NCBI GenBank assembly: GCA_029718625.1
Contig: CM056380.1
Span: forward strand, 114,710,746-114,774,745
Source: Synaphobranchus kaupii
Lineage: Eukaryota; Chordata; Actinopteri; Anguilliformes; Synaphobranchidae
Direction: 5' to 3'
Length of the DNA stretch: 64,000 nt
Under the pieces are notes generated by a model. It saw nothing but the letters and a program-made list of their open reading frames with translations, searched no databases and was not told the origin of the DNA. Of the stretch, positions 725 through 43,206 are shown piece by piece. Every line of letters starts with the position of its first letter. Positions within the stretch are counted from its first letter, which is position 1. The position numbers and the translations under genes were made by a program.

Positions 725-3700
725 TAGTGCCAACTCAACAGGAACTAAAACAGACCAGTGCCAACTCAACACGGCCTACATTAGACCAGCTCTAACCTAA
801 CAGGGCCTACATTAGACCAGCTCTAACCCAACAGGGCCTGCATTAGACCAGCTCTAACCTAACAGGGCCTACATTACACCAGCTCTAACCCAACAGGGCC
901 TACATTAGACCAGCTCTAACCTAACAGGGCCTACATTAGACCAGCTCTAACCCAACAGGGCCTACATTAGACCAGCTCTAACCCAACAGGGCCTACATTA
1001 GACCAGCTCTAACCCAACAGGGCCTACATTAGACCAGCTCTAACCTAACAGGGCCTACATTAGACCAGCTCTAACCCAACAGGGCCTACATTAGACCAAC
1101 TCTAACCTAACAGGGCCTACATTAGACCAGCTCTAACCCAACAGGGCCTACATTAGACCAGCTCTAGCCTAACAGGGCCTACATTAGACCAGCTCTAGCC
1201 TAACAGGGCATACATTAGACCAGCTCTAACCTAACAGGGCCTACATTAGACCAGCTCTAACCCAACAGGGCCTACATTAGACCAGCTCTAGCCTAACAGG
1301 GCCTACATTAGACCAGCTCTAGCCTAACAGGGCATACATTAGACCAGCTCTAGCCTAACAGGGCATACATTAGACCAGCTCTAACCTAACAGGGCCTACA
1401 TTAGACCAGCTCTAACCCAACAGGGCCTAAATTAGACCAGCTCTAACCCAACAGGGCCTACATTAGACCAGCTTTAACCTAACAGGGCCTACATTAGACC
1501 AGCTCTAACCCAACAGGGCCTACATTAGACCAACTCTAACCTAACAGGGCCTGCATTAGACCAGCTCTAACCTAACAGGGCCTACATTAGACCAGCTCTA
1601 ACCCAACAGGGCCTACATTAGACCAGCTCTAACCTAACAGGGCCTACATTAGACCAGCTCTAACCTAACAGGGCCTACATTAGACCAGCTCTAACCCAAC
1701 AGGGCCTACATTAGACCGGCTCTAACCTAACAGGGCCTACATTAGACCGGCTCTAACCTAACAGGGCCTACATTAGACCAGCTCTAACCCAACAGGGCCT
1801 ACATTAGACCGGCTCTAACCTAACAGGGCCTACATTAGACCGGCTCTAACCCAACAGGGCCTACATTAGACCAGCTCTAGCCTAACAGGGCCTACATTAG
1901 ACCAGCTCTAGCCTAACAGGGCATACATTAGACCAGCTCTAACCTAACAGGGCCTACATTAGACCAGCTCTAACCCAACAGGGCCTACATTAGACCAGCT
2001 CTAGCCTAACAGGGCCTACATTAGACCAGCTCTAGCCTAACAGGGCATACATTAGACCAGCTCTAACCTAACAGGGCCTACATTAGACCAGCTCTAGCCT
2101 AACAGGGCATACATTAGACCAGCTCTAGCCTAACAGGGCCTACATTAGACCAGCTCTAACCCAACAGGGCCTACATTAGACCGGCTCTAACCTAACAGGG
2201 CCTACATTAGACCGGCTCTAACCTAACAGGGCCTACATTAGACCAGCTCTAACCCAACAGGGCCTACATTAGACCAGCTCTAACCCAACAGGGCCTACAT
2301 TAGACCGGCTCTAACCTAACAGGGCCTACATTAGACCGGCTCTAACCTAACAGGGCATACATTAGACCAGCTCTAACCTAACAGGGCCTACATTAGACCA
2401 GCTCTAACCTAACAGGGCCTACATTATACTAGCTCTAACCCAACAGGGCCTACATTAGACCGGCTCTAACCTAACAGGGCCTACATTAGACCAGTGCCAA
2501 CTCAACACGGCCTACATTAGACCAGCTCTAACCTAACAGGGCCTACATTAGACCAGCTCTAGCCTAACAGGGCATACATTAGACCAGCTCTAGCCTAACA
2601 GGGCCTACATTAGACCAGCTCTAACCCAACAGGGCCTACATTAGACCAGCTCTAACCTAACAGGGCATACATTAGACCAGCTCTAACCTAACAGGGCCTA
2701 CATTAGACCAGCTCTAACCTAACAGGGCCTACATTAGACCAGCTCTAACCCAACAGGGCCTACATTAGACCAGCTCTAACCTAACAGGGCCTACATTAGA
2801 CCAGCTCTAACCTAACAGGGCCTACATTATACTAGCTCTAACCCAACAGGGCCTACATTAGACCGGCTCTAACCTAACAGGGCCTACATTAGACCGGCTC
2901 TAACCTAACAGGGCCTACATTAGACCGGCTCTAACCTAACAGGGCCTACATTAGACCAGCTCTAACCCAACAGGGCCTACATTAGACCAGCTCTAACCTA
3001 ACAGGGCATACATTAGACCAGCTCTAACCTAACAGGGCCTACATTAGACCAGCTCTAACCTAACAGGGCCTACATTATACTAGCTCTAACCTAACAGGGC
3101 CTACATTAGACCGGCTCTAACCTAACAGGGCCTACATTAGACCGGCTCTAACCTAACAGGGCCTACATTAGACCAGTGCCAACTCAACACGGCCTACATT
3201 AGACCAGCTCTAACCTAACAGGGCCTACATTAGACCAGCTCTAGCCTAACAGGGCATACATTAGACCAGCTCTAGCCTAACAGGGCCTGCATTAGACCAG
3301 CTCTAACCCAACAGGGCCTACATTAGACCGGCTCTAACCTAACAGGGCCTACATTAGACCGGCTCTAACCTAACAGGGCCTACATTAGACCAGCTCTAAC
3401 CCAACAGGGCCTACATTAGACCAGCTCTAACCTAACAGGGCATACATTAGACCAGCTCTAACCTAACAGGGCCTACATTAGACCAGCTCTAACCTAACAG
3501 GGCCTACATTATACTAGCTCTAACCTAACAGGGCCTACATTAGATTAGACCGGCTCTAACCTAACAGGGCCTACATTAGACCAGTGCCAACTCAACACGG
3601 CCTACATTAGACCAGCTCTAACCTAACAGGGCATACATTAGACCAGCTCTAACCTAACAGGGCCTACATTAGACCAGCTCTAACCTAACAGGGCATACAT

Positions 3701-4815
3701 TAGACCAGCTCTAACCTAACAGGGCCTACATTAGACCAGCTCTAACCTAACAGGGCCTACATTATACTGGCTCTAACCTAACAGGGCCTACATTAGACCG
3801 GCTCTAACCTAACAGGGCCTACATTAGACCAGCTCTAACCCAACACGGCCTACATTAGACCAGCTCTAACCTAACAGGGCCTACATTAGACCGGCTCTAA
3901 CCTAACAGGGCCTACATTAGACCAGCTCTAACCCAACAGGGCCTACATTAGACCAGCTCTAACCTAACATGGCCTACATTAGACCAGCTCTAACCTAACA
4001 GGGCCTACATTAGACCAGCTCTAACCTAACAGGGCCTTCATTAGACCAGCTCTAACCTAACAGGGCCTACATTATACTAGCTCTAACCTAACAGGGCCTA
4101 CATTAGACCGGCTCTAACCTACCAGGGCCTACATTAGACCAGCTCTTACCCAACAGGGCCTACATTAGACCAGCTCTAACCTAACAGGGCATACATTAGA
4201 CCAGCTCTAACCTAACAGGGCCTACATTAGACCAGCTCTAACCTAACAGGGCCTACATTAGACCAGCTCTAACCCAACAGGGCCTACATTAGACCAGCTC
4301 TAACCTAACAGGGCCTACATTAGACCAGCTCTAACCTAACAGGGCCTACATTAGACCAGCTCTAACCTAACAGGGCCTACATTAGACCAGCTCTAACCCA
4401 ACAGGGCCTACATTAGACCAGCTCTAACCTAACAGGGCCTACATTATACTAGCTCTAACCTAACAGGGTCTACATTAGACCAGCTCTAACCTAACAGGGC
4501 CTACATTAGACCAGCTCTAACCTAACAGGGCCTACATTAGACCAGCTCTAACCTAACAGGGCCTACATTAGACCAGCTCTAACCTAACAGGGCCTACACC
4601 AGACCAGCTCAAATCCAACAGGGTTACACCAGACCTGCTCAAACCCAACAGGGACTACACGAGACCAGTTCTAACCCAACTGGGCCTACACCAGACCAGC
4701 TTTAACCTAACAGGGTCTACACCAGACCAGCTCAAATCCAGCAGGGCCTACACCAGACCTGCTCAGACCCAACAGGCCCCTATACCAGACCAGCTCAAAC
4801 CCAACATGACAGTTC
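725..4815. repeat. 31-bp minisatellite, about 130 copies
   Basis: A 31-bp unit with core cagggcctacattagacc followed by agctctaacc(t/c)aa is repeated in strict register for about 4.1 kb. It decays at both ends (gtgccaactcaaca before 770, caaatccaacaggg after 4600). Rare variants such as attatactagctc recur at multiples of 31 (2423, 2826, 3074, 3508), except for one 5-bp insertion (attagattagacc near 3540). Other recurrent variants are gcatacatt, accggctc and ccagtgccaactcaacacgg (about 2490, 3175 and 3585). The mix implies growth by segmental duplication of blocks. It lies inside a BICC1 intron. Confidence 0.95.
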
Positions 4816-5296: not shown

Positions 5297-6885
5297 TACA
5301 ACCCCAATTCCAAAAAGGTTGGGACGGTAAATTAAATGCAAATAAAAACAGAAAGCCGTAATTTGTAAATTTACTTTGACTTGTATTCAAACAAAAACAG
5401 TATAAAGACAAGCTATTTCATGTTTTACCTAATCAACTTCATTGTTTTTTGAAGATATACATTTTGTTCTGAAATTGATGCCTGCAACACGTTCCAAAAA
5501 AGTTGGAACAGGGACTAATAACAATGTGACAAGTTGAAATAACAAGGTGATGTTAAACAGGTGAGGTGAAACAGGTGATGTTAAACAGGTGAGGCAATCG
5601 TGTAATAGTATATAAGGAGCCTCCAAGAAAGGCCTAGTCCTTCAAGAGCAAGGATGGGTCGAGGCTCGCCAATTTGCCAACAGATGCGTCAGCGAATAAT
5701 CCACCACTTTGACAACAATGTTCCCCGAAGACAAATCGGTAGGATTTTGGGCATTTCACCATCTACAGTGCACAATATAATTAAAAGATTCAAGGAATCC
5801 GGTGAAATATCGGTGCGTAAAGGGCAAGGCCGAAAACCACTTCTGAATGCGCATAATCTCCCATCCCTCAGACGTCACTGTCTTAAAAAACGTCATGCCT
5901 CTGTAATGGATATCATGACATGGGCTCGGGAATATTTTGGTAAACCTTTGTCAGTCGACACCATTAGCCGCTGCATCCACAGATGCAAGCTAAGGCTTTA
6001 CTATGCAAAGCAGAAGCCATACATCAACACTGTCCAGAAGCGCCGCCGACTTCTCTGGGCTCGGTCTCATCTGAGATGGACAGAAGCACAGTGGAAGCGT
6101 GTTTTGTTGACTCGTCGGACAACAAAACACATTTCAAATAGTTTTTGGAAAAAACAGCCGTTATGTTCTCCGCGCCAAAGAGGAAAAGGACCATCCAAGC
6201 TGTTATCAGCGTCAGGTCCAAAAGCCAGCGTCTGTCATGGTATGGGGGTGTGTCAGAGCCCATGCCATGGGTAACTTGCATCTGTGAGGGCACCATTAAT
6301 GCAGAAAGATATGTAGAAATTTTGGAGCAACATATGCTGCCATCCAGACGCCGTCTTTTCCAAGGACATCCCTGCATTTTCCAGCAGGACAACGCCAAAC
6401 CACATTCTGCCCGGATTACAAGTGCATGGTTGCATAAGCAGAGAGTGCGGGTGCTAGATTGGCCTGCCTGCAGTCCTGACCTGTCTCAGATTGAGAATGT
6501 ATGGCGCATTATGAAGCGAAAAATACGGCAACGAAGGCCCTGTACAATTGCGTAGCTGAAGACCTGCATAATGGAAGAATGGAGGAAAATTCTGCTTGCT
6601 AAACTTAACCAACTTGTGTCTTCAGTGCCCAAACGCTAAATAAGTGTTATTAAAAGAAAGGGTGATGTTACACAGTGGTAAACACTCAACTGTCCCAACT
6701 TTTTTGGAGCGGGTTGCAGTCATCAGATTTGAAATGAGTGTATATTTTCAAAATAACTATAAAATTCACAAGGTAAAACATCAAATATGTGTTGTTGTAG
6801 TGTTTTCAATATAGTAAAGGATGAATAGAATTTACAAATCACTCCTTTTTGTTTTTATTAGCATTTTCCATACTATCCCAACATT
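5297..6885 (+). mobile_element. Tc1/mariner element, degenerate
   Basis: The left end starts after a TA dinucleotide (5297-5298) with caaccccaattccaaaaagg, a terminus typical of teleost Tc1-like elements. About 190 bp inside it is a second, inner repeat (5481-5515, core ttccaaaaaagttgg). The matching inner repeat sits inverted at 6691-6721 (ccaacttttttggagc). This gives the nested IR/DR arrangement known from fish Tc1 elements such as Sleeping Beauty. On the right the inverted copy of the inner part of the terminus is recognisable (ttacaaatcactcc to actatcccaac, about 6832-6882). The outermost 20 bp that should mirror the left tip are absent or diverged. The element encloses a broken transposase (5654-6640), so it should be neither autonomous nor easily mobilised. 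Confidence 0.9.
5654..6640 (+). pseudogene. Tc1-like transposase, inactivated
   Basis: The frame from ATG 5654 encodes the N-terminal paired-like helix-turn-helix (RRQIGRILGISPSTVHNIIK) and the linker GRKPLL. The C-terminal part carries the second catalytic Asp (FQQDNAKPH) and the DD34E glutamate (SPDLSQIENVW). Several lesions are visible. The first catalytic motif reads L-T-R-R-T instead of L-S-D-E-S because a 10-bp hairpin loop is inverted (6110-6119). A 1-base shift lies near 6140-6150. A TG dinucleotide appears deleted in catctgtgaggg near 6281-6286. An in-frame TAG lies at 6553-6555 where family members continue (residues LKTC follow). The family mechanism is cut-and-paste at TA sites. 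This copy cannot make active enzyme. Confidence 0.92.
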
Positions 6886-7365: not shown

Positions 7366-7596
7366 GTTGCATTTACATTTACATTTCAGGCATTTAGCAG
7401 ACGCTCTTGTCCAGAGCGACGTACACAGATTTAGCATTTTTGCATATGACCCATTTACCCAGCTGGCTATGCACGGAAGCAATTCAGGTTAAGTACCTTG
7501 CTCAAGAGTACAGCGGCGGGGTCTTACCTGGGAATCGAACCTGCAACCTTTTTTGGTTACAAGCCCATTTCCCTATCCGTTACCACACTGCCGCCT
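7366..7596 (-). mobile_element. tRNA-derived SINE (minus strand)
   Basis: Read on the minus strand, the head has a B-box-like gcaggttcgattccc (complement of gggaatcgaacctgc near 7530). The 3' part is the teleost-wide tail gtcgctctggacaagagc and gtctgctaaatg. It ends in a short acatttacattt repeat. The same family recurs at 28738-28976 and 42983-43206. Confidence 0.8.
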
Positions 7597-10890: not shown

Positions 10891-13800
10891 TGTTTGTCTG
10901 TCTGTGTGTGCATGCATTTGCGTGTGTGTGTGTGTGTGTGTCAGGGCTTTCTCCCACTGGTCCTGATGTTTGATATTAAGGACGATATGGAGGTGGAGCC
11001 GCAGTTCTTGACCTCTCTCATGGAGCGACTGGACGTCTTCGTGAGCATCAAGGCCAAGGTCAAACAGCCCAGCAAGGTACAGGCCCTGCCCACTAACAAC
11101 CATGCCCAACCCTAGCCGTCAGCCAGCAAAATCCCCCAGCCAATCACAGGTTATTGTGTAAGCTCCAAGTCACCAGCCTCCCCCAACCGTGTCCCTCCCT
11201 TACACCCACCCCAATCGTAGACACAGGCCACTGTATAAGCGCCTTCCGTCTCACTCTCTTTGATTTATCTAAAGACGCCGGTTATGTCAAGTCCGTTTCC
11301 CTGCCGTTTGTTTGCTCGTAGCTTTTTCCCTTCTTCCTGACCTTCAGCATCGCACCGGCTGAGGACTTTCAGCCCTGGCGCTTCGTAAAGCTGTTGAGTC
11401 AGTGATCTTCTGGCCGGCTCTCCGGGTGCCTGAGCGCCTGCTAATGGGTTGCGCTGTGATTGAGGCGCTAATTAGAGCTAGCGCACAGGGGAGACGCACG
11501 CTCTCTTATGCAGGGAGCTGTGAGATATGTGTTCTCTCCCTGCTCTTCCCTCAGAGGGCATTTTGCCTGCAGTCTCCTCTCTGTAGTTCAAAAACAGAGA
11601 GCAATGAGCAAGGCTCTAGAGGGAGTATGTACAGAACAGATAATGGCTAAAGACAAAGTCAAAGGCTGCGGTTCAATCTTTGCTCTCAACTGTTTGGCTG
11701 TATTCCACTTTAGTTCACGTAATTAGTTTGATTAATGCAATGATTCTATTGAATGTCTTTATTTGATATGTTTGTTTGTGTGTTGTGGGTCTGCCCCACT
11801 GTCTATGTCTTTTCTGTTGATGCTGGTGGCTCCAACTGAAATTCCCTAAAGTGAAAATAAAAGTTATTCTATTCTATTCTATTCTAACTTTAACTAAGAG
11901 CTGAAGTATGCTATATATTTATGTTTTTATTCACAAACAGTTTATTCACAAATACAGTGAATAAACATTAAAATAAACGCTGAAATAGCCAAACTGTGTT
12001 TGTGAATAAAAAAATATATATTCTTTTTTTTTATTTGTTTCTGATTTTTCCCCATTTTCTCCCAATTTAGTAGCCAATTGAACCCCTATTCTAATTCAAT
12101 TCCCCCCGTGTAGCAACCGCTAGAGAATCACCGCTACACAACCCCGTCAGCCGGCGGTAGGACGGGAGGGCGCCACGTCCTCTTCAGGCGCGACTTCTCC
12201 TAGCTCCTGACCGTGATTCCAGCCCGCCCAGGGCCGCTATGCACGCAGCGATTCTCCCAGAGCCCCTCCCCCCACCCGGAAGCAGCCGCCAATTGCTGTT
12301 CCCACAGGGCGCCGGCCATGCTCGGATCTGGCAGGACCGGGGCGCGAACCCCGATCCTCGGAGCACAACCGCACCGACTGAAAGTCAGCGCTTTTACCGC
12401 TGTACTACCGCGACGGCCCTAAAAATATATATTCTATATGATTGAATACAGTCCAGGCTGAGGAATCACTCCATGTGTTGTTCTCACAGACATGTGCAAA
12501 TGCTCGGTTGTTTGCATTTAAAAGTGAAATGTAAATACTATGTGTTGCTATTTGGTAATTTTTTATTTTTCTATTTAGAAGACTAGCATTGGAACAGCTA
12601 TTCATCTAAAAAGTTTTAAATAACAAAGCATGGTATTTACATTCCACATATACAGCTGAACTAGGCACAGGCTGAGAAATTATTCTTCACTGCGCTAAAG
12701 TGATGTTATTATTTATTGGCTTTAAATGTGTATTCCTTTTACAATGCGTCTCATTCTCCCTGCTAATATAATGTTAGTGATGCCCAATCGCTGTGGATTT
12801 TTGCTATTCTCGTAACCCCAGACGGTCAGGAGAGAGCTCAAGGTGCTTATCTTGCTGTCTGGGAACAGCGCTCTAATGACAGAGACATTAGATTCTGCCG
12901 TTTGCAGAAGTGTGACATATCTCATACACGCCTCCTGTCACCCTTCAACCACTTCCCTGTGTCTCAGCTTATGTTTGAAAGCCAGCGTGAATCACCTCCT
13001 TTGAGTTGATGTGACTGACGTTTGCACTTGGAGTTTGTAAATTGTTTTGGAGAAAAGCGTCCTGCCAAAGCGAAAATAAATATGAGTGTGAATGTGTATG
13101 ACTGGGTTAGCGGTAGCCTGCTCTCACGTTCTGTCCCGTTCTCTTTGGGTGAGCCAGACCGTGATCGTGAAGAGCGTGGAGAGGAACGCCATGAGCATGT
13201 ACGAAGCCAGGAAGTTTCTACTGGGCCTGGAGCACTGCGGGGTGCCTGTACCCCAAAACAGTGGCCCTTCCCACCTCGTCTGCACCGTGGGCCTGGACAT
13301 ACTGGCCTCAGCTGGCCTGGGGCTCACCAGTCTCGGTAAGAGGGTACAGCTGGCCTGGGGCTCACCAGTCTCGGTAAGAGGGTACAGCTGGCCTGGGGCT
13401 CACCAGTCTCGGTAAGAGGGTACAGCTGGCCTGGGGCTCACCAGTCTCGGTAAGGGGGTACAGCTGGCCTGGGGCTCACCAGTCTCGGTAAGAGGGTACA
13501 GCTGGCCTGGGGCTCACCAGTCTCGGTAAGAGGGTACAGCTGGCCTGGGGCTCACCAGTCTCGGTAAGGGGGTACAGCTGGCCTGGAGCTCACCAGTCTC
13601 GGTAAGAGGGTACAGCTGGCCTGGGGCTCACCAGTCTCGGTAAGAGGGTACAGCTGGCCTGGGGTTCCCCAGCCTGGATAAGGGGTACAACTACTTGGGG
13701 TTCACCACACAGGATAAGTGGGTAAAGCTGATTGGCGCTCTCTCCCCCGATTCATCTTGGCTGAAATCCTCACCGATTTCTAATAATATTTAATATGTAA

Positions 13801-16563: not shown

Positions 16564-16602
<39 letters not shown>

Positions 16603-16607
16603 TGTAT

Positions 16608-16646
<39 letters not shown>

Positions 16647-16657
16647 TGTATGCACAC

Positions 16658-16708
<51 letters not shown>

Positions 16709-16716
16709 TGTATGCG

Positions 16717-16762
<46 letters not shown>

Positions 16763-16767
16763 TGTAT

Positions 16768-16802
<35 letters not shown>

Positions 16803-16846
16803 TGTATGCACACACACACACACACACACACCTATGTATGCACACA

Positions 16847-16884
<38 letters not shown>

Positions 16885-16889
16885 TGTAT

Positions 16890-16924
<35 letters not shown>

Positions 16925-16967
16925 TGTATGCACACACACACACACACACACACCTATGTATGCACAC

Positions 16968-17006
<39 letters not shown>

Positions 17007-20000
17007 TGTATGCACACACACACACACACACACACACCTATGTATGCACACACACACACACACACACAGACACCCATATATGCACATACACACACAAACA
17101 CACACACACACTCACGCACATATACACACACACACACCTATGTATGCACATATGCACACATGCACACACACACAAACACACACACACACATAGTCACACA
17201 CATGTATGCACATATACAAACACGCACACACACACAGACACACACACACACACACACAGATAAAAGAGTAGGTTTCATATTGTGTCTGTGGTTCCTCTCT
17301 CTCTAAGGCTTGTCATCTCAGCTGATGATGCACCCAGCCACACAGGCCACCCTGAGGACCCTCCTCCTTTCTGGGGCCCAGGGGTACACCCAGAGCACCC
17401 CTTCTCCACCCCCGGGCCTGGCCCCCATCGACACACAGGCCAACAGCATCCCTGAGTGTGGGAAAACAGCTCGCTCTCTCAACGGCCACATCAAAGTATG
17501 CATGCTCTCCAATTCACACCTTACACCATAGCCTGCTGCGTGGAGCACAGTTACGAGATCTCAGTGAATATGTTATTCTTGCATAGCACTTAAATCAGCA
17601 CTCATATTGTGCATTGTGTTTTTTGATAGTGTACTTGGTTAGTCTGTCTAGTCAAGTGTGTAAACAATAGTTATTTTCTTAGCACAATCACTCACTTACT
17701 GAAGTGCTGCTAGCGCTGTTTTTTACTTCTCTTTGCTTTTGAGTCTTTTGCTTGCACTAATCTACTCTCTCCGGAGTATCTGTGGCATTTTTCCGGAGTA
17801 TTTGAGTCATTCTGGAGAAGAGTGTCTGCTAAATAACTGTAACGTAATATAACGTGACCGTCCAATACTGACAGAAATATCATCCCGCCGAGCCTCAATA
17901 AGAGTGCTTAGTCCCCTTTGCTCTAGACCTTGGTCTTTAGCCCAGGAGGCCCATTGCATCTCTTGCATCATGGGTTCAATCCCACAACGGGCTTATCCAT
18001 TGCCTTTAGAAGTGCATGCTATTGTCTGTATCTACAGCAGGTACTTGGGCTGCGTCCGCAATGACTCCCTATACACTTTATAGTGCACTATTTACAGGAT
18101 GACTCCCTATACACTTTATAGTGCACTATTTACAGGATGACTCCCTATACACTTTATAGTGCACTATTTACAGGATGACTCCCTATACACTTTATAGTGC
18201 ACTATTTACAGGATGACTCCCTATACACTTTATAGTGCACTATTTACGGGATGGGCTATTTTGATGGTTTCCAAATTCTCAATTGAGAACGCTGAGATTT
18301 AGGACGTCCTACAAAATGGCTGATTCCCTAAAGAGTGCACTATAAAGCGTATAGGGAGCCATTTTGAACGCAGCTTTAGTTAGAAAAGCGTTGAATTGTT
18401 ACTAAATAAGGTACTGTATTGATGTAAGGCTATGGAATGGATGTCCTTATGTCGTACCGTAGATCTGACGGTGTTGGGTTGCCTGTTGCTTTACAGCACC
18501 CCTGCTCGGTTTACAGCAGATTGTCTTCGACGTCGCTGGCTGACCAGGTCCGAAGCCCCTCCCACAACGACCCGGCACAGGACGCCGGCGGTCATTGTCC
18601 CTCTGAGCCGCTGTCCAGCAAGTCCGGCTCCGACCAAGGTACCGCCGCTTCTCCGAGCAGACGGCCTAACGGCAGCGAGCGCGCTAAACCTGAAACGCTG
18701 CCAGAATATTCACAGGCAATCAGTCTCTTAGTTGATTTCACAGCTTTTCTGCCGCTCTGTGAGCTGATGATTAGCCGTTCTTGGCTAAGTGCCATTAGAC
18801 CCGTGCACCTTAGTCATGTGTACTCTGTTTAAATTGGCTCTGCTCTTGCTAATACTGTAGCACGTGTAGTTTGAAGAGAAATGTATTCAGCGTAGTTGGT
18901 AAATAATTATGAGACCTCGAATTAAATTGTTTTGTATGCACCATCATAGTTGGTGACCTCATTCTCCCAAATTGTAATTATATTTGTTAACTGAAATCCC
19001 AGTTTTTATTTGCAGTGACCTGGGGAATTAAAATGGATACTAAGTGCCATGGAGTCTGTAGATAATCGGATGGTGGGGGAATGATGCAGTGGCCAGATTA
19101 TAGAGGCATCCTAATCTTTTTTCAAAGTGCTGCAGGACCTTTATTGACCTATGTGAGTCAGGAAACCTCATCCAAACTATGGTACCTTTTAGAGCACAAT
19201 GCCCCCATCACTGTGCTGGGGCATTAGATCTTTATTTGATCCAGAGGAAAGACTGCCCTCTACTGGTCACCCCAACATCTCTACCAATAGCAACTTAGTT
19301 TTCCCAAGAGGTCACTATGAACCAAGTCCAGTCCTGCTTAGTTTCAGCAGGATAACATGAGAAGGGTACAAAACAGTACGACTGCATACAGGGCTGTATG
19401 GCTGCTTAGCTTCAGCAGGTTGACATGAGAAGGATACAGGGTGGTTTGGCTACTTAGCTTCAGCAGTTTGACATGAGAAGGATACAGGGTGGTACGGCTG
19501 CTTAGCTTCAGTAGTTTGACATGAGAAGGATACAGGGTGGTACGGCTGCTTAGCTTCAGTAGTTTGACATGAGAAGGATACAGGGTGGTACGGCTGCTTA
19601 GCTTCAGTAGTTTGACATGAGAAGGATACAGGGTGGTACGGCTCCTTAGCTTCAGTAGTTTGACATGAGAAGGATACAGGGTGGTACGGCTGCTTAGCTT
19701 CAGTAGTTTGACATGAGAAGGATACAGGGTGGTACGGCTGCTTAGCTTCAGTAGTTTGACATGAGAAGGATACAGGGTGGTACGGCTGCTTAGCTTCAGC
19801 AGGTTGACATGAGAAGGATACAGGGTGGTACGGCTGCTTAGCTTCAGCAGGTTGACATGAGAAGGATACAGGGTGGTACGGCTGCTTAGCTTCAGTAGTT
19901 TGACATGAGAAGGATACAGGGTGGTACGGCTGCTTAGCTTCAGTAGTTTGACATGAGAAGGATACAGGGTGGTACGGCTGCTTAGCTTCAGCAGTTTGAC

Positions 20001-23000
20001 ATGAGAAGGATACAGGGTGGTACGGCTGCTTAGCTTCAGTAGTTTGACATGAGAAGGATACAGGGTGGTACGGCTGCTTAGCTTCAGTAGTTTGACATGA
20101 GAAGGATACAGGGTGGTACGGCTGCTTAGCTTCAGCAGGTTGACATGAGAAGGATACAGGGTGGTACGGCTGCTTAGCTTCAGCAGGTTGACATGAGAAG
20201 GATACAGGGTGGTACGGCTGCTTAGCTTCAGTAGTTTGACATGAGAAGGATACAGGGTGGTATGGCTGCTTAGCTTCAGTAGTTTGACATGAGAAGGATA
20301 CAGGGTGGTACGGCTGCTTAGCTTCAGTAGTTTGACATGAGAAGGATACAGGGTGGTACGGCTGCTTAGCTTCAGCAGTTTGGCATGAGAAGGGAAAATA
20401 TGTGTCTGTCTGAGTTTGGCTATTTGTGCCCCAGAGCGATAGAGCACCTTGCCATTGCGTTTCAGGCTCAGACACGTTTGTAGAAGTGGGGATGCCAAGG
20501 AGCCCATCGCACTCGGCCAACAGCAGTGAGCTGAAGCAGATGCTGGCTTCCTGTAAGACCTCGGGCGGGAGTCACACTGTGGAGCTCCGACAGGGACCTC
20601 ACAACCCCCACCTGCAGTACGTATTCACACACCTTCACCTGCAGTACCTATTCACACACACACCTCCACCTGCAGTACGTATTCACACACCTCCACCTGC
20701 AGTACCTATTCACACACACACCTCCACCTGCAGTACGTATTCACATACCTCCATCTGCAGTACCTATTCACACACACACCTCCACCTGCAGTACGTATTC
20801 ACACACCTCCACCTGCAGTACGTATTCACACACACACCTCCACCTGCAGTACGTATTCACATACCTCCATCTGCAGTACCTATTCACACACACACCTCCA
20901 CCTGCAGTACGTATTCACACACCTCCACCTGCAGTACGTATTCACACACCTCCACCTGCAGTACGTATTCACACACCCCCACCTGCAGTACGTATTCACA
21001 CACCTCCACCTGCAGTACGTATTCACACACCTCCACCTGCAGTACGTATTCACACACCTCCACCTGCAGTACCTATTCACACACCTCCACCTGCAGTACG
21101 TATTCACACACCTCCACCTGCAGTACGTATTCACACACCTCCACCTGCAGTACGTATTCACACACCCCCACCTGCAGTACCTATTCACACACACCTCCAC
21201 CTGCAGTACGTATTCACACACCTCCACCTGCAGTACGTATTCACACACCTCCACCTGCAGTACGTATTCACACACCTCCACCTGCAGTACGTGTTCACAC
21301 ACCCCCACCTGCAGTACGTATTCACACACCTCCACCTGCAGTACGTATTCACACACCTCCACCTGCAGTACGTATTCACACACCTCCACCTGCAGTACCT
21401 ATTCACACACCTCCACCTGCAGTACGTATTCACACACCTCCACCTGCAGTACGTATTCACACACCCCCACCTGCAGTACCTATTCACACACACCTCCACC
21501 TGCAGTACGTATTCACACATCTCCACCTGCAGTACGTATTCACACACACCTCCACCTGCAGTACCTATTCACACACACCTCCACCTGCAGTACGTATTCA
21601 CACACCTCCACCTGCAGTACCTATTCACACACCTCCACCTGCAGTACGTATTCACACACCTCCACCTGCAGTACGTATTCACACACACCTCCACCTGCAG
21701 TACGTATTCACACACCTCCACCTGCAGTACCTATTCACACACACCTCCACCTGCAGTACGTATTCACACACCTCCACCTGCAGTACGTATTCACACACAC
21801 CTCCACCTGCAGTACGTATTCACACACACCTCCACCTGCAGTACGCATTCACACACCTCCACCTGCAGTACCTATTCACACACACCTCCACCTGCAGTAC
21901 GTATTCACACACCTTCACCTGCAGTATCTATTCACACACACCTCCACCTGCAGTACGTATTCACACACCTTCACCTGCAGTACGTATTCACACACCTCCA
22001 TCTGCAGTACCTATTCACACACCTTCACCTGCAGTACGTATTCACACACACCTCCACCTGCAGTACCTATTCACACACACCTCCACCTGCAGTACGTATT
22101 CACACATCTCCACCTGCAGTACGTATTCACACACACCTCCACCTGCAGTACCTATTCACACACACCTCCACCTGCAGTACGTATTCACACACCTCCACCT
22201 GCAGTACCTATTCACACACCTCCACCTGCAGTACGTATTCACACACCTTCACCTGCAGTACGTATTCACACACCTCCATCTGCAGTACCTATTCACACAC
22301 ACCTCCACCTGCAGTGCGTATTCACACACCTCCACCTGCAGTACGTATTCACACACCTCCACCTGCAGTACCTATTCACACACCTCCACCTGCAGTACGT
22401 ATTCACACACCTCCACCTGCAGTACGTATTCACACACCCCCACCTGCAGTACCTATTCACACACACCTCCACCTGCAGTACGTATTCACACACCTCCACC
22501 TGCAGTACGTATTCACACACACCTCCACCTGCAGTACGTATTCACACACCTCCACCTGCAGTACCTATTCACACACACCTCCACCTGCAGTACGTATTCA
22601 CACACCTCCACCTGCAGTACGTATTCACACACACCTCCACCTGCAGTACGTATTCACACACACCTCCACCTGCAGTACGTATTCACACACCTCCACCTGC
22701 AGTACCTATTCACACACACCTCCACCTGCAGTACGTATTCACACACCTTCACCTGCAGTATCTATTCACACACACCTCCACCTGCAGTACGTATTCACAC
22801 ACCTTCACCTGCAGTACGTATTCACACACCTCCATCTGCAGTACCTATTCACACACCTTCACCTGCAGTACGTATTCACACACACCTCCACCTGCAGTAC
22901 CTATTCACACACACCTCCACCTGCAGTACGTATTCACACACCTCCACCTGCAGTACCTATTCACACACCTCCACCTGCAGTACGTATTCACACACCTTCA

Positions 23001-26000
23001 CCTGCAGTACGTATTCACACACCTCCATCTGCAGTACCTATTCACACACACCTCCACCTGCAGTACCTATTCACACACACCTCCACCTGCAGTGCGTATT
23101 CACACACCTCCACCTGCAGTACCTATTCACACACACCTCCACCTGCAGTACGTATTCACACACCTTCACCTGCAGTACGTATTCACACACCTCCATCTGC
23201 AGTACCTATTCACACACCTCCACCTGCAATACCTATTCACACACACCTCCACCTGCAGTACGTATTCACACACCCCCACCTGCAGTACCTATTCACACAC
23301 ACCTCCACCTGCAGTACGTATTCACACACACCTCTACCTGCAGTACGTATTCACACACCTCCACCTGCAGTACGTATTCACACACCTCCACCTGCAGTAC
23401 GTATTCACACACCTCCACCTGCAGTACGTGTTCACACACCCCCACCTGCAGTACGTATTCACACACCTCCACCTGCAGTACGTATTCACACACCTCCACC
23501 TGCAGTACGTATTCACACACCTCCACCTGCAGTACCTATTCACACACCTCCACCTGCAGTACGTATTCACACACCTCCACCTGCAGTACGTATTCACACA
23601 CCCCCACCTGCAGTACCTATTCACACACACCTCCACCTGCAGTACGTATTCACACATCTCCACCTGCAGTACGTATTCACACACACCTCCACCTGCAGTA
23701 CCTATTCACACACACCTCCACCTGCAGTACGTATTCACACACCTCCACCTGCAGTACCTATTCACACACCTCCACCTGCAGTACGTATTCACACACCTCC
23801 ACCTGCAGTACGTATTCACACACACCTCCACCTGCAGTACGTATTCACACACCTCCACCTGCAGTACCTATTCACACACACCTCCACCTGCAGTACGTAT
23901 TCACACACCTCCACCTGCAGTACGTATTCACACACACCTCCACCTGCAGTACGTATTCACACACACCTCCACCTGCAGTACGCATTCACACACCTCCACC
24001 TGCAGTACCTATTCACACACACCTCCACCTGCAGTACGTATTCACACACCTTCACCTGCAGTATCTATTCACACACACCTCCACCTGCAGTACGTATTCA
24101 CACACCTTCACCTGCAGTACGTATTCACACACCTCCATCTGCAGTACCTATTCACACACCTTCACCTGCAGTACGTATTCACACACACCTCCACCTGCAG
24201 TACCTATTCACACACACCTCCACCTGCAGTACGTATTCACACATCTCCACCTGCAGTACGTATTCACACACACCTCCACCTGCAGTACCTATTCACACAC
24301 ACCTCCACCTGCAGTACGTATTCACACACCTCCACCTGCAGTACCTATTCACACACCTCCACCTGCAGTACGTATTCACACACCTTCACCTGCAGTACGT
24401 ATTCACACACCTCCATCTGCAGTACCTATTCACACACACCTCCACCTGCAGTGCGTATTCACACACCTCCACCTGCAGTACGTATTCACACACCTCCACC
24501 TGCAGTACCTATTCACACACCTCCACCTGCAGTACGTATTCACACACCTCCACCTGCAGTACGTATTCACACACCCCCACCTGCAGTACCTATTCACACA
24601 CACCTCCACCTGCAGTACGTATTCACACACCTCCACCTGCAGTACGTATTCACACACACCTCCACCTGCAGTACGTATTCACACACCTCCACCTGCAGTA
24701 CCTATTCACACACACCTCCACCTGCAGTACGTATTCACACACCTCCACCTGCAGTACGTATTCACACACACCTCCACCTGCAGTACGTATTCACACACAC
24801 CTCCACCTGCAGTACGTATTCACACACCTCCACCTGCAGTACCTATTCACACACACCTCCACCTGCAGTACGTATTCACACACCTTCACCTGCAGTATCT
24901 ATTCACACACACCTCCACCTGCAGTACGTATTCACACACCTTCACCTGCAGTACGTATTCACACACCTCCATCTGCAGTACCTATTCACACACCTTCACC
25001 TGCAGTACGTATTCACACACACCTCCACCTGCAGTACCTATTCACACACACCTCCACCTGCAGTACGTATTCACACACCTCCACCTGCAGTACCTATTCA
25101 CACACCTCCACCTGCAGTACGTATTCACACACCTTCACCTGCAGTACGTATTCACACACCTCCATCTGCAGTACCTATTCACACACACCTCCACCTGCAG
25201 TACCTATTCACACACACCTCCACCTGCAGTGCGTATTCACACACCTCCACCTGCAGTACCTATTCACACACACCTCCACCTGCAGTACGTATTCACACAC
25301 CTTCACCTGCAGTACGTATTCACACACCTCCATCTGCAGTACCTATTCACACACCTCCACCTGCAATACCTATTCACACACACCTCCACCTGCAGTACGT
25401 ATTCACACACCCCCACCTGCAGTACCTATTCACACACACCTCCACCTGCAGTACGTATTCACACACACCTCTACCTGCAGTACCTATTCACACACACCTC
25501 CACCTGCAGTACGTATTCACACACCTCAACCTGCAGTACCTATTCACACACACCTCCACCTGCAGTACGTGTTCACACACCTCCACCTGCAGTACGTATT
25601 CACACACCCCCACCTGCAGTACGTATTCACACACACCTCCACCTGCAGTACGTATTCACACACCCCCACCTGAAGTACGTATTCACACACCCCCACCTGC
25701 AGTACCTATTCACACACACCTCCACCTGCAGTACATATTCACACACCTCCACCTGCAGTACGTATTCACACACCTCCACCTGCAGTACGTATTCACACAC
25801 CTCCACCTGCAGTACGTATTCATACACACCTCCACCTGCAGTACATATTCACACACCTCCACCTGCAGTACATATTCACACACCTCCACCTGCAGTACGT
25901 ATTCACACACCCCACTGTACCTAAACCTGCGCTAAATGAGATTTAAAGAAATAAATTTGAGCAGCTCAAACATTTATATTTACATAGGGTATCCATTCAG

Positions 26001-29000
26001 AGTCACTTTTTTTTTTTTAAATACAATCCATTTATTCTGCTGGATATGAGGCAGGGGTGGCCAACCCTGGTCCTAGAGAGCCACAGGGTCTGCTCGTGTT
26101 TGTTTTCACCTTAAATGCGACAACTACTTATACCAAAGAAACCAGATGAGGTGAGTTAACTCTGTAATCAACTGCTTTAATTGATCAATTAAGTGGCGAG
26201 TAACAACTAAAACCAGCAGACCCTGCGGCTCTCCAGGACCAGGGTTGGCCACCCCCTGTTCCCTGAGGTAAAAGCACAGTGTACAACAGTTAGTGCCCCA
26301 CCCGGGACGGGAGCCTGCTACCTCTAAGCATAACCACTATGCCACACCACCTCTTGGATGTGCTTGCTGGATGGTTGTTACGGTAACGGAGCGTACTCCT
26401 CCCACAGCTCAGACCGACTCCTCTCGGAGCCGGAGTCCAGCCCCTCGGAGATCCCCTTGGGCGACAAGAGAGCCCCGGGGAGCGAGAGAGCAGCAGAGAG
26501 AGCCGCCCAGCAGAACTCAGAGAGGATGCGTCTCACGCCACAGGCCTCCTTCATCAACATGCAGGTCTTATTATTGTTATTGTTATTAATATTATTATTA
26601 TTAATATTGTTATTGTTATTAGTAGTAGTAGTAGTCTGTTACAGTCCCACAATGCAGGATTAAGTAGTTGGGTCATTCCGTGTCAAATCAACCAGTGGTC
26701 CCTGCATGACCCTCTCAGATTTTGATGAAACTCCATCATAATAATCCATTGTATGAAAAATTAACACACACAAAAAATGCGACATGTCGCTTCCGAGACA
26801 TGGCCTCCTGAAATTTGCTCAAAACCTCCGTCTTTCGCGCTCGCGAGTCGTGAAAACGCGCACATTTTTTCTGATTTTGGAAGCTTATAACTTGGGATTG
26901 GTAACAGCTATAGAGCTGAAACCTAACTTACCTTCTTCCAACCTGCAAGAATCCGACATCAGATTACTTGTACCCCCTTCCCTTTTCAAGTTATATGCAC
27001 CCAAAGTAGCCACTTTGTTCAGTTGCACATGTTTTTGGTGATTTTCGAGGTCACCCTGTGCCCATACGAGTGGACATGTACATCCCATATCACAGATGTA
27101 TTATCTATAGGTGTATGTTTATGGTCACAAGCAAGTACAGGCTAATCAATTCATTTGTAAAGGAATGACATCCATCCAAAGTTGGGTCCGGGTGAAAAAA
27201 AGTCAAAAACACAACCGTCCGTCTTGTCAATGGATCACCATGTGGACAGTTAAAACTTTTTCTGAAATTTACACCAGTTAAACAGATATATTAGATCTAC
27301 TCATCAACCAAATTTCAGCTTTGGTACTCAATACAGGAACTTTTCAGAAAACGGGTTGAATGACCCAGTTAGCCGGTTAACTTTTTGTAAATATTTTGAA
27401 TTTGATTACATCTGATTGGATGAGAGCCTGGGTATCTTCAAAAATATTTATAAAAGTTAGCCGGCTAATCCCGCTTTGTGAAATACCCCCTGCTTTGATG
27501 TTTGAACAATAACCTCTTTGTCTCTCCGTGTTCAGACATTCGACTATGAACAGAAAAAGCTGTTAGCGACCAAAGGTAAGTGGTTGCGGCTAACATTCCA
27601 CTGTCGTTTTACTGTGTAGAATTTTAGTTTGGTGTCCCTGTGCCTCTGCATCATAGCTGAAGATGCAAAAGGCTCCAAAGATGATTGGTTGTTCTGCGTG
27701 AATGATCTCATTTCGAAAGGAAAATTATTGGTTGCGTGTCATGAATGTGGATGAAGATGGTTGGTTGTACTGTGTGAGTGATGTCATTCACAGAAGACAC
27801 AGTTGATTTGCTGTGCTGCGTGAATAATATCACATAGAAAGGAGGATGATTGGTCCATTCTGTTTGTTGTGTAGCCATGTTGAAGAAGCCCGTGGTGACA
27901 GAGGTCCGGACCCCCACCAACACCTGGAGCGGTCTCGGCTTCTCCAAGTCCATGCCTGCCGAGACCATCAAGGAGCTGCGACGAGCCAACCACGTGTCCT
28001 ACAAGCCGACCATGACCACCACGTACGAGGTACACAGGCACACCCCACGCTATAGACTTTGGAGGATGCATATATGCAAATTCCCATGTCACAGGGAGGG
28101 AGAATTTAAAGATACCATAAAGTCTGGCCTGGACAAAGACCCTTTCTGCATTTTCGGAGATAACCCCACAGTAAAAGAAGTTGGTAGTGAGGTCAGCAAT
28201 CCACACATACATGCACTCCTGGCTTGGATTTGCTTAACATAACTTTATGACAAGAACAGGCCATTCAGTCCAACAATGCTCACCATCTTTCTACCACTAA
28301 AGAGTACCTAGTGCTCCCCTACAAACTAGATAATATCAGCACCATATCAAGCCTGGTCTTGAAAGCACACAGAGTTTCTCCCTCTTGATAAGAACTGGCC
28401 CCACAAGCTTATTTGCTTTGTACCTTGTAAAACATACCTTGTAAAACTATTTTGCTTGAGCATTAAATTTGGCCCATGTGAAAAGCCTGTAAGGAGGGTT
28501 TTATGGGATATCTGTCTGGGGCATCATAGCTGATTTCTGTGGCCATATCTCCCACCCCTACCTCAAACCCAGACATTTTCATCTGGGGCTTGTGGAAAGG
28601 GAAGTTGCAGTTTGTAAGACTGGTGTCCTACTAGCACATTTTAGCCAGCATTATGTTATAGGACCCCAAAGACTAATCAAAATAAATAACTCATCATAGG
28701 ATTATGAGCTAAAGCACATTGCCTCAGTTTTGATCGACTTTACATTACATTACTGTATTTTTAGCAGAAGTTCTTGTCTAGAGTCGCTTACACAGATTAT
28801 ATATATATTATTTACATACAATTCATACATTAATACAGCTGGATATTTACTGAAGCAGTTCAGGTCAAGAACACTGCTCAATGGCACAACAGAAGTGCCC
28901 TGGTTGGGAATCAAACCCACAACCATTGATGTTTCAAGGCCAGTTCCCAAACCATTACACTACACTTCCTCCCAATGGGCTTACGTCACATCAGCATGTT

Positions 29001-32000
29001 AACCCAATCAGGCACATCGTAACAAGAAGTTACGAAGCTGACAAGTGAGACTAAGCACAAGATGAAACACAGTTCACGTCAGTGCCATCGATATTAAAGG
29101 CTACACTATACACCTGTATATTATGGGATGCTAACTGACACCATGCTTTCCCCTCTTTGTGTTTCTACTTGCCTTGCAGTGTTTTGTGGTTATTGGGGAT
29201 ATGTAATGTAATTTTGAATCAATCTCTTTATCCCTTTACCAACAGAGCATTATAGTTTTGTTATGTGTGGCTTTGGGTTTCAAAATAACTAACTTTATTA
29301 GTTATTTTGTAGCCTCAGCTGCAGACGCTATCATCTGTGGGGTGTGTGGGAAGAGAAGTTGCAGTTTGTGAAGTCAGTATAGCACAGTCACGTTTTTTCC
29401 TTGCCTTCAGGAGCCTTGTGGGAAGTTTTAATCATTTCTGTCCAGATTCCCTCCTGATTTTATTTTAGAAGTTTAAAAAAAAAAAAAAAAATTATTTATT
29501 TTTTTTCACCCTGTCTGCTGCCAGGAGTCTCCCCTGTCCCTATCAAACAACCTCGAGGGCATGGGGGCGGGCAGTGACTCGGACAACTGGAGGGACAGGA
29601 ACGGCGGGGACCTCAGGGGTCCCTCGGAGTTTGCGGCGTCCGTGGGCAGCCCCAAGAGGAAGCAGACCAAATCAGGTGTGTGGGGGCGTGCCGCTGCTCT
29701 TCCCACCTCAGGAGAGAACCATAAAAATTAGATTCTTTTTCAAGACTGAGCTGAGGGAAAGTTTCCTTAAACCAATCCTTGTGGAGATTGGTTTGATGTT
29801 AATTGGTTTGAATGCAGATTGGTTTGGTGCAGATAGGTTAGAATGCTGATTGGTCTGAATGATGCTGGTTGGTTTGAATGCTAATTGGTTTGATTCTGAT
29901 TGGTTTGAATGCTGATTGGTTTGATTCTGATTTGGTTGGAATAAGTCCCGCCCGATGGCACTCCCTTGTTTTTCATAGATCTTTTCCCCCTGCAGTGGAG
30001 CACTATCTGAGTAGCAGTAGCTACATGGACTGCATTTCCTCAGCAATGAGCACCAACGGCTGCAGCCTGAACTCCTCTTCCAGGGGCTCGGACCTGCCCG
30101 AGCTGTTCAGCAAACTGGGCTTAGGAAAGTACACTGACGTCTTTCAGCAGCAAGAGGTCCGGACCCGCCACCCCGCCACCCACCACCTTATCACCTTACA
30201 CTACACTTATTTGCCGTATTTTAGTCTAATCATACCAGACTTGGGTCAAATCGTCTTTAGTCAACAGTAGAATTCCTGCAGATTACTGATGATTTTAAAA
30301 GAAATATTATTTCTATATATATATAAATATTTAGAACAAAATCAATCTTCCTTGTGATGGCGATGTTTTGGTTTGTTAATGTTTTTGTTGAAAATTTTCA
30401 GGGATCTGCATGAATGGAGTATCGAACTCTCATGCATTAGACTATATCATACAAAGCCGCTGCCATTGAAATACTCTTAACTAAAGATAGCATACTGATT
30501 CAGTTTGTGTGCATGGTTTACAGTGGCAGAATTATTATTATTATTATTATGCAGCAGCTAGAGCGCATCACAGGTGAAATTAAACACACGTAAGGCGGGT
30601 TTAAAACTATAAAAACCAATGTCATTAAACTTTTCTGCTCATTTAGTACTTAATTATCTCATGGCAACAAATCATCTTAGCAGATGATTAAATATCACGT
30701 CCTTGTGTTTTACAAGTGGCGATGTGCAAGACACAGGAACCATGCTCAGATTTTTACTGAAGACATTAAACTATGTGCAACCTTGTCTTTCAGATTGACC
30801 TGCAGACGTTTCTGACACTGACTGACACAGACCTGAAGGAGTTGGGCATCACCACATTTGGAGCCCGGAGAAAGATGCTGCTGGCTATTTCAGGTTTGTG
30901 TTTGGAAACGTTCACTGCATTTGCATTTGAATTTATCCATTTAACAGGTGTTCTATCCAGAGCGACTTACACAACTTACTTTAAAAATAACAAAACTTTT
31001 ATACACACAATCCCACGTATACGCAAGCAATTCACACTCAAGGTTGCCACAGGCTATTTCAGGTGTGTGCTTGGAAACGTTCACTGCATTTGCATTTGAA
31101 TTTTTGCCATTTAACAGATGTTCTATCCAGAGCGACTTACACAGCTTACTTTAAAAATAACAAAAATTTTATACACACAATCCCACGTATACGCAAGCAA
31201 TTCACACTCAAGGTTGCCACAGCTATAACCCACTGGCAAACTTATCTCTGCAATCTCTGAGTTCTCCACTCAGTTTATTTGCAATAATTGCTAGCCTGCA
31301 CCTATCAGCCTACCATTTCCATGGTGATTAATGCACAAATGCGCCCGGCCTAGTTTTTCTGTCTAGCGCTGACAGCTTCGTGTTTACACAAAGTTTGCAC
31401 AGCCGCGCCACCTCACTTCGACACAAACTTTTGACGAAAGTCCTCCGGCAAGGAGTTCCTATTACTATTCCTTTGCCATAATAGCTTAAAAATTAAAGGT
31501 AAAAATTATTGCAGTCGTTAAAGATGTGGGATAATGCCTCGGGGTAATGCCTGCAGATACACTATGTAAGAGCTCTCAAAGCACGAAGTATAACTGAAAA
31601 ATGAGCCAGTCTGCATACTGCAGGAATACATAACCCAAAAGCGGTTTAAAAAAAATAAATAGAAAGTTTCAAAATATTTTATTCAACAGCTTACATTATC
31701 ATATAAATTGCAGTGTGTAGTAAGCTTACATTATCATATAATTTGTGTGCTGAAAAGAAAGTGACCAACCCCTCTTAGAGGTGCCAGAATATTATTTTCA
31801 AATGTCGGCCTCTCTTGCTTAGGCTGAGTTCCCTGTTATTTCATTGTGCACCGAGGAGGGACATAGTATATCTTGTACATTTATGCGGTAAGCCCAAAAT
31901 GGTGGAGGCGTAGGCTGCTCGACAAATGACAGATAAGACGCAGACTATACAGAAATGAGACTAGCAACCTGCATTTGGTGAAACAGGGATAACATCTGTT

Positions 32001-42982: not shown

Positions 42983-43206
42983 ATTACATTACATTACATT
43001 ATAGGCATTTAGCAGACGCTCTTATCCAGAGCGACTTACACAACTTCTTATTACATTTATCCATTCATACAGCTGGATATATACTGAAGCAATTCAGGTT
43101 AAGTACCTTGCTCAAGGGTACAACGGCAGTGTCCTAACTGGGAATCGAACCTGCTACCTTTCAGTTACAAGTCCAGTTCCTTAACCATTATACTACACTG
43201 CCGCCT
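42983..43206 (-). mobile_element. tRNA-derived SINE, best preserved copy
   Basis: On the minus strand the head has A-box-like tagtataatggttaagg and B-box gcaggttcgattccc, then the body, and the tail gtcgctctggataagagc and gtctgctaaatgcc, ending in a (TAATG)n-type tail (complement of cattacattacattac). This is the reference copy for the family in the window. Confidence 0.88.

Follow-up and report, generated by a model that had tools for sequence, protein, structure and literature searches.

Introduction

Minisatellite-like duplications of intron/exon boundaries, termed mirages, have been described in amphioxus, where they occur in Adh3, the globin genes BflGb6 and BflGb9, TnC, and PGBD5, and at both donors and acceptors (PMC3087553, PMC3902484). 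According to one of these reports, which cites Canestro et al. 2002 on the subject, Adh3 data and globin RT-PCR suggest that regular splicing is undisturbed, and haplotypes of the BflGb6 mirage have 6 and 3 units (PMC3087553). Tandem genomic duplication is also a proposed route of intron gain in the AGGT model (PMC3443670), and seabream GH introns contain minisatellites, which may or may not span a boundary (PMC3045353). In a literature search of partial coverage, with most subscription papers outside it, we recognized no vertebrate mirage. Intronic CA-repeat splicing elements, with hnRNP L, are a further class in which an intronic repeat and splicing meet.

Here, we describe a tandem array that adjoins exon H of BICC1 in the deep-sea eel Synaphobranchus kaupii, within an analyzed stretch of 64,000 nucleotides (the window). 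Its tandem units are of minisatellite size, and the unit spans an authentic exon/intron boundary together with its splice site. As in amphioxus mirages, the copies carry splice signals, the genic copy is kept, and there are signs of unequal exchange. The array differs from them in lying in a vertebrate and in having 191 units against the 6 and 3 given for BflGb6; furthermore, where amphioxus has mirages at both kinds of boundary, the BICC repeats examined here occur at donors only (none at 46 acceptors), and evidence from a related gene, bicc2, points to takeover of the donor role by a copy. The tandem duplication at exon H carries splice signals, as in the AGGT model, but no new intron has formed there, and the copies lie inside an old one. 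A new intron between duplicated AGGT sites was considered and ruled out, since the C4 paralog (P0009) has an intron at the same place with the same donor. With their CA-rich sequence and their place close behind a 5′ splice site, the units may also be likened to intronic CA-repeat elements. The exon H array is a mirage, and so of a kind already described; it is very large and extends the phenomenon to a vertebrate.

Results and discussion

BICC1 in the window

The window contains the last fifteen coding exons of BICC1 (A to O, 8723–32975), with GT-AG in all 14 introns. Their spliced translation gives 756 aa followed by the final stop, and all 756 residues are identical to part of SKAU_G00181460 (P0001), an annotated 957-aa S. 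kaupii protein, which bears out the assignment to BICC1 in a preliminary description of this DNA. Another BICC1 exon, ending EKSNQ, is followed by an apparently GC-AG intron that starts CAG/GCACGT (here and below, a slash marks an exon/intron boundary). The features around exon H are as follows.

20466–20616, + strand: BICC1 exon H, 151 nt, ending in AACCCCCACCTGCA (spliced translation equal to SKAU_G00181460)
20617–20622, + strand: authentic 5′ splice site of exon H, GTACGT (homolog junctions; same donor in the C4 paralog)
20599–25915, + strand: boundary array after exon H, 191 units of 27, 29, or 31 bp (TRF and anchored pattern)
21199–23346, + strand: 2,148-bp block, repeated exactly at 23336–25483 with no mismatch (base-level comparison)
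26408–26564, + strand: BICC1 exon I, acceptor CCCACAG/CTCAGAC (spliced translation equal to the annotated protein)

Structure of the exon H array

The junction of exon H with its intron reads CCACCTGCA/GTACGTATTC; 20616 is the last base of the exon and 20617 the first of the donor, which corrects the coordinates given earlier. TRF describes the array (20599–25915) as a 27-bp unit present 191.5 times, while a search with an anchored pattern gives 191 units, including the true exon end, at spacings of 27 bp (121 gaps), 29 bp (64), and 31 bp (5). The preliminary description, which had about 190 repeats of the junction directly 3′ of exon H in units of 27 to 31 bp, was accurate on both points. The array takes in the final 18 nt of exon H and the donor at 20617, and it makes up 92% of the 5.8-kb intron between exons H and I. 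Each unit consists of about 18 nt resembling the exon end and the first intron bases, and GT is retained in 189 of the 191. At positions +1 to +6, the hexamer is GTACGT in 121 units and GTACCT in 55, with GTATCT (4), GTGCGT (4), GTACAT (3), GTACGC (2), and ATACCT (2) making up the rarer forms. The earlier phrase "scores of equal copies" is therefore apt for the 121 GTACGT units and not for the array as a whole.

Exact matches to the 19-mer across the junction, CCACCTGCAGTACGTATTC, number 102 in the 1.5-Gb assembly, and all 102 lie in the window, inside the exon H array; the same exact-match search returned none on the reverse strand and none for a reversed control. Since every exact copy is inside the array, its likeness to the exon end is not due to chance. 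This bears on the possibility that a pre-existing dispersed satellite landed beside exon H and resembled the exon end fortuitously. Tandem repeats are indeed abundant in the genome, making up 9.8% of a 200-kb sample from C5, but the 19-mer is absent, as an exact match, from the rest of the assembly and the protein sequence at the exon end is conserved, and we find such an origin scarcely credible.

Between 20617 and 25915 there are 139 copies of CACCTCCACCTGC, which is similar to the 33.15 minisatellite consensus quoted for PMC2235864; from the motif, a tie to recombination would be only a guess.

Origin and growth of the array

Of the 2,016 18-mers in the mapped coding sequence, the one at the very end of exon H is closest to the unit, differing from it by a single base and a 1-nt indel, in agreement with the earlier proposal that the exon seeded the repeat. 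The exon H end is conserved at the protein level among BICC1 homologs, and its split His codon (CA/C) is kept across fish BICC1. Among the best 120 of 484 homologs found, the plain junction is present in 111, of which 100 were recognized by pattern and 11 by eye (the latter with an extra T after His or with F in place of L); a short insert occurs in 8, and 1 was unreadable. The same exon in the C4 paralog ends CACCTTCA/GTACGTACCC, that is, with a CA/GTACGT donor, and has no array there. An array-free paralog with the same donor indicates that the donor and seed are older than the array and that the array arose on one gene copy. Altogether, the ancestral character claimed for the exon end held up on both homologs and paralog, and the view that exon H seeded its array is supported.

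We distinguish 23 unit types in the array. Types H, N, and S occur only near the 5′ edge and types M, T, U, V, and W only near the 3′ edge, while an internal block of 77 units is present twice, exactly. This is concerted evolution with distinct edge units, and edge-only variants with block duplication are expected from unequal exchange that leaves the edges out. We propose that the array began as a tandem duplication covering ~18 nt at the end of exon H together with the first intron bases, and that slippage and unequal exchange then amplified it, including one very recent 2.1-kb block. The first copy would have stayed the true exon end and the other 190 would be intronic. In this one assembly, the exact 2,148-bp block is compatible with length polymorphism or somatic instability; because the repeat is exact, the copy number of the array is uncertain and may be inflated by assembly. 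That the array, or much of its length, came from collapse or expansion of reads would account for a block of this size without mismatch, but it fits poorly with 23 unit types including edge-specific variants, and with the presence of boundary repeats at another five donors, in two genes (described below), and we regard it as quite improbable. The 2,148-bp block alone may be artificial, which would leave about 114 units.

Boundary repeats at other donors

Further tandem repeats lie at or next to donors of the window gene.

13158–13335, + strand: BICC1 exon D, ending in CAGTCTCG/GTAAGA (spliced translation equal to the annotated protein)
13309–13707, + strand: second boundary array (exon D), 38 bp × 10.6, 27 exonic and 11 intronic nt (TRF)
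30794–30893, + strand: BICC1 exon N (spliced-exon map)
30883–31226, + strand: third boundary repeat (exon N), 170 bp × 2.0, from 11 nt inside the exon, donor included (TRF)
16567–17258, + strand: (CA)n-rich array from 11 nt past the last base of exon E, donor not spanned (TRF)
26568–26621, + strand: (TTA)18 from 4 nt past the last base of exon I, donor not spanned (TRF)

The exon D array holds nine copies of TCG/GTAAG. On C18, bicc2 (P0121) has three donors spanned by repeats of 21 bp × 2.3, 28 bp × 9.7, and 39 bp × 12.4, and these are all three of the boundary arrays found outside the window gene. Across the three BICC genes, boundary repeats span 6 of 46 donors and none of 46 acceptors (Fisher P = 0.026, a guide only, since donors within one gene are nonindependent and the 5′-most exons are absent). 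By set, the spanned donors are 3 of 14 in the BICC1 window, 0 of 4 in the four upstream exons, 0 of 14 in the C4 paralog, and 3 of 14 in bicc2. This tally leaves out the 5′-most exons of BICC1 and of the C4 paralog; bicc2 contributes 14 donors and 13 acceptors, two joins being left out and the poorly scoring acceptor side of donor 6299 dropped. Two 5′ exons of the C4 paralog, outside the tally, show no donor-spanning array; a (CT)n tract adjoins an acceptor there.

As a sample from elsewhere in the genome, 80 of 150 Sushi-domain matches were picked by rank, leaving aside those within very long open frames and some of the near-identical copies in tandem. Of these, 20 were examined, with each donor taken by eye as the GT that directly follows the domain; none of the 20 donors had a boundary-spanning array. 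One Sushi-domain donor is followed, 18 nt downstream, by a 16-bp × 26.8 array. Formation of boundary arrays is recurrent, but the Sushi sample does not support their being common genome-wide.

An array starts within −30 to +15 of the donor at 5 of the 14 window donors (D, E, H, I, and N), a count that none of 3,000 random placements reached (one reached four). This clustering of array edges is suggestive only, the zone having been chosen after D, E, H, and I were seen. A strong-donor signature of minisatellites was also sought in 200 kb of C5, among units with a period of at least 10 and at least 2 copies and with a human donor matrix; the scan gave no unit with a site scoring at least 5, a result that carries no information, since even the donors of exons H, D, and N fall short of that score. 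In the C4 paralog, the counterpart of exon A has a 45-bp × 6.8 array that begins 6 nt past its donor, which is not spanned, and exon E contains an in-exon 39-bp × 5.1 repeat.

An apparent donor shift in bicc2

In S. kaupii DNA, the bicc2 exon ending EKSNQ reads AGCAACCAG-GGTCTGTCGCCC-AGCAACCAG/GTACTGTCACCC, a two-copy boundary repeat. A 7-aa insert, (V/G)LSPSNQ, is present at this position in S. kaupii, Anguilla rostrata, Albula goreensis, Conger conger, and Aldrovandia affinis, and Megalops is without it; among the best 120 of 731 bicc2-type proteins, 5 have the insert, 104 read directly EKSNQVSI, and 11 show neither pattern. GTACTGTCACCC translates as VLSP, and the intron of bicc2 now begins with this same sequence. 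Based on annotated proteins and the DNA of one genome, the simplest account is that the boundary was duplicated, a downstream donor was apparently adopted, and the first donor decayed. Another bicc2 exon, K, is followed by the array of 39-bp units, which is open in the exon's frame, so that use of most of its donor copies would lengthen the protein in steps of 13 aa; in the annotated protein, the junction is that of the first donor.

Possibly, although we would lean somewhat against it, minisatellites at the donor side of exon boundaries form recurrently in elopomorphs and create competing 5′ splice sites, with an occasional takeover that turns an intron start into coding sequence. Were the process recurrent in this way, (V/G)LSPSNQ would be a fixed takeover and GTACTGTCACCC would be the old intron start too. 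The bicc2 case connects a repeat at an exon boundary with an insertion in the protein, and indels at the ends of exons may arise by this route.

Donor choice and reading frame

The annotated S. kaupii BICC1 protein has the plain exon H junction, formed from the first donor with no insert; the annotation may be homology driven, so it is no proof that the first donor is used exclusively. The exon's frame and one other + strand frame are open throughout the array, and the third has one stop, at 25671; through the open frames, a slipped donor would meet no stop inside the array. The frame is kept by 54 of the 191 copies, the true donor counted, while 137 would shift the frame of exon I and lead to a stop in exon J, an outcome for which NMD is predicted. 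The nearest equal donors downstream of exon H, at +58 and +116, belong to the latter group, and the nearest further GTACGT copies in frame are at +174 and +201. At exon D, all eight further GT copies lead to a premature stop.

The inserts found at the exon H junction in 8 of the 120 listed homologs are of 5 to 7 aa and come from six Oncorhynchus/Salvelinus and one Umbra entry (QYVCPEL) and from one Spinachia entry. They begin Q-Y-V or Q-C-V, which is the reading of CAG-TAY-GTN or the like as coding sequence; judging from this, a nearby downstream donor is probably used in these fish.

The preliminary description suggested that slippage in donor choice yields length-variable inserts in the BICC1 linker. 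Such an outcome may occur, as the homolog inserts and the 7-aa insert of bicc2 suggest. That several of the donor copies at exon H are functionally used in this way would draw further on the open frame through the whole array, the 54 in-frame copies, and the open 39-bp units at bicc2 exon K, but the nearest equal donors and most other copies shift the frame, the further exon D copies meet stops, and the annotated protein carries no insert; we think such use unlikely at this locus. In our view, the likely reading of the exon H array is a genuine mirage, unusually large and seeded by the exon, that is probably close to neutral and leaves splicing at the first donor. Exon definition would mostly pair the 3′ splice site with the 5′-most, first-transcribed donor, and first-donor use of this kind would leave the copies nearly neutral and the array free to grow. 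Occasionally, a downstream copy would take over and add residues encoded by the unit, which bicc2 strongly suggests has happened there. The gene offers a natural competition among near-identical 5′ splice sites, with a weak donor present 191 times at exon H and a stronger donor nine times at exon D, in which a rule of first-donor choice is directly testable.

U1 pairing and polyadenylation signals

Computed with the human U1 sequence, the exon H donor forms the weakest U1 duplex of the 14 window donors (−3.4 kcal/mol), and the 55 GTACCT copies reach −1.7. The intron between exons H and I has one AATAAA, at 25950, downstream of the array, and no ATTAAA. It had been proposed that the copies might hold U1 snRNP locally and so suppress premature polyadenylation. 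The 189 GT-bearing copies and the position of the AATAAA after the array would suit such a model, but the copied donor is the weakest of the 14 and only a single signal is there to be suppressed; these values speak against the proposal, and we judge a role of this kind very improbable.

Other features of the window

A 31-bp × 130 minisatellite occupies 768–4806, upstream of the mapped exons, and no exon match to it stood out. Open frames at 5609–6555 resemble a decayed Tc1/mariner-type transposase, a candidate recognized by reading the ORFs. Two UnaL2 LINE 3′ elements lie on the minus strand, at 42999–43052 and 7384–7437.
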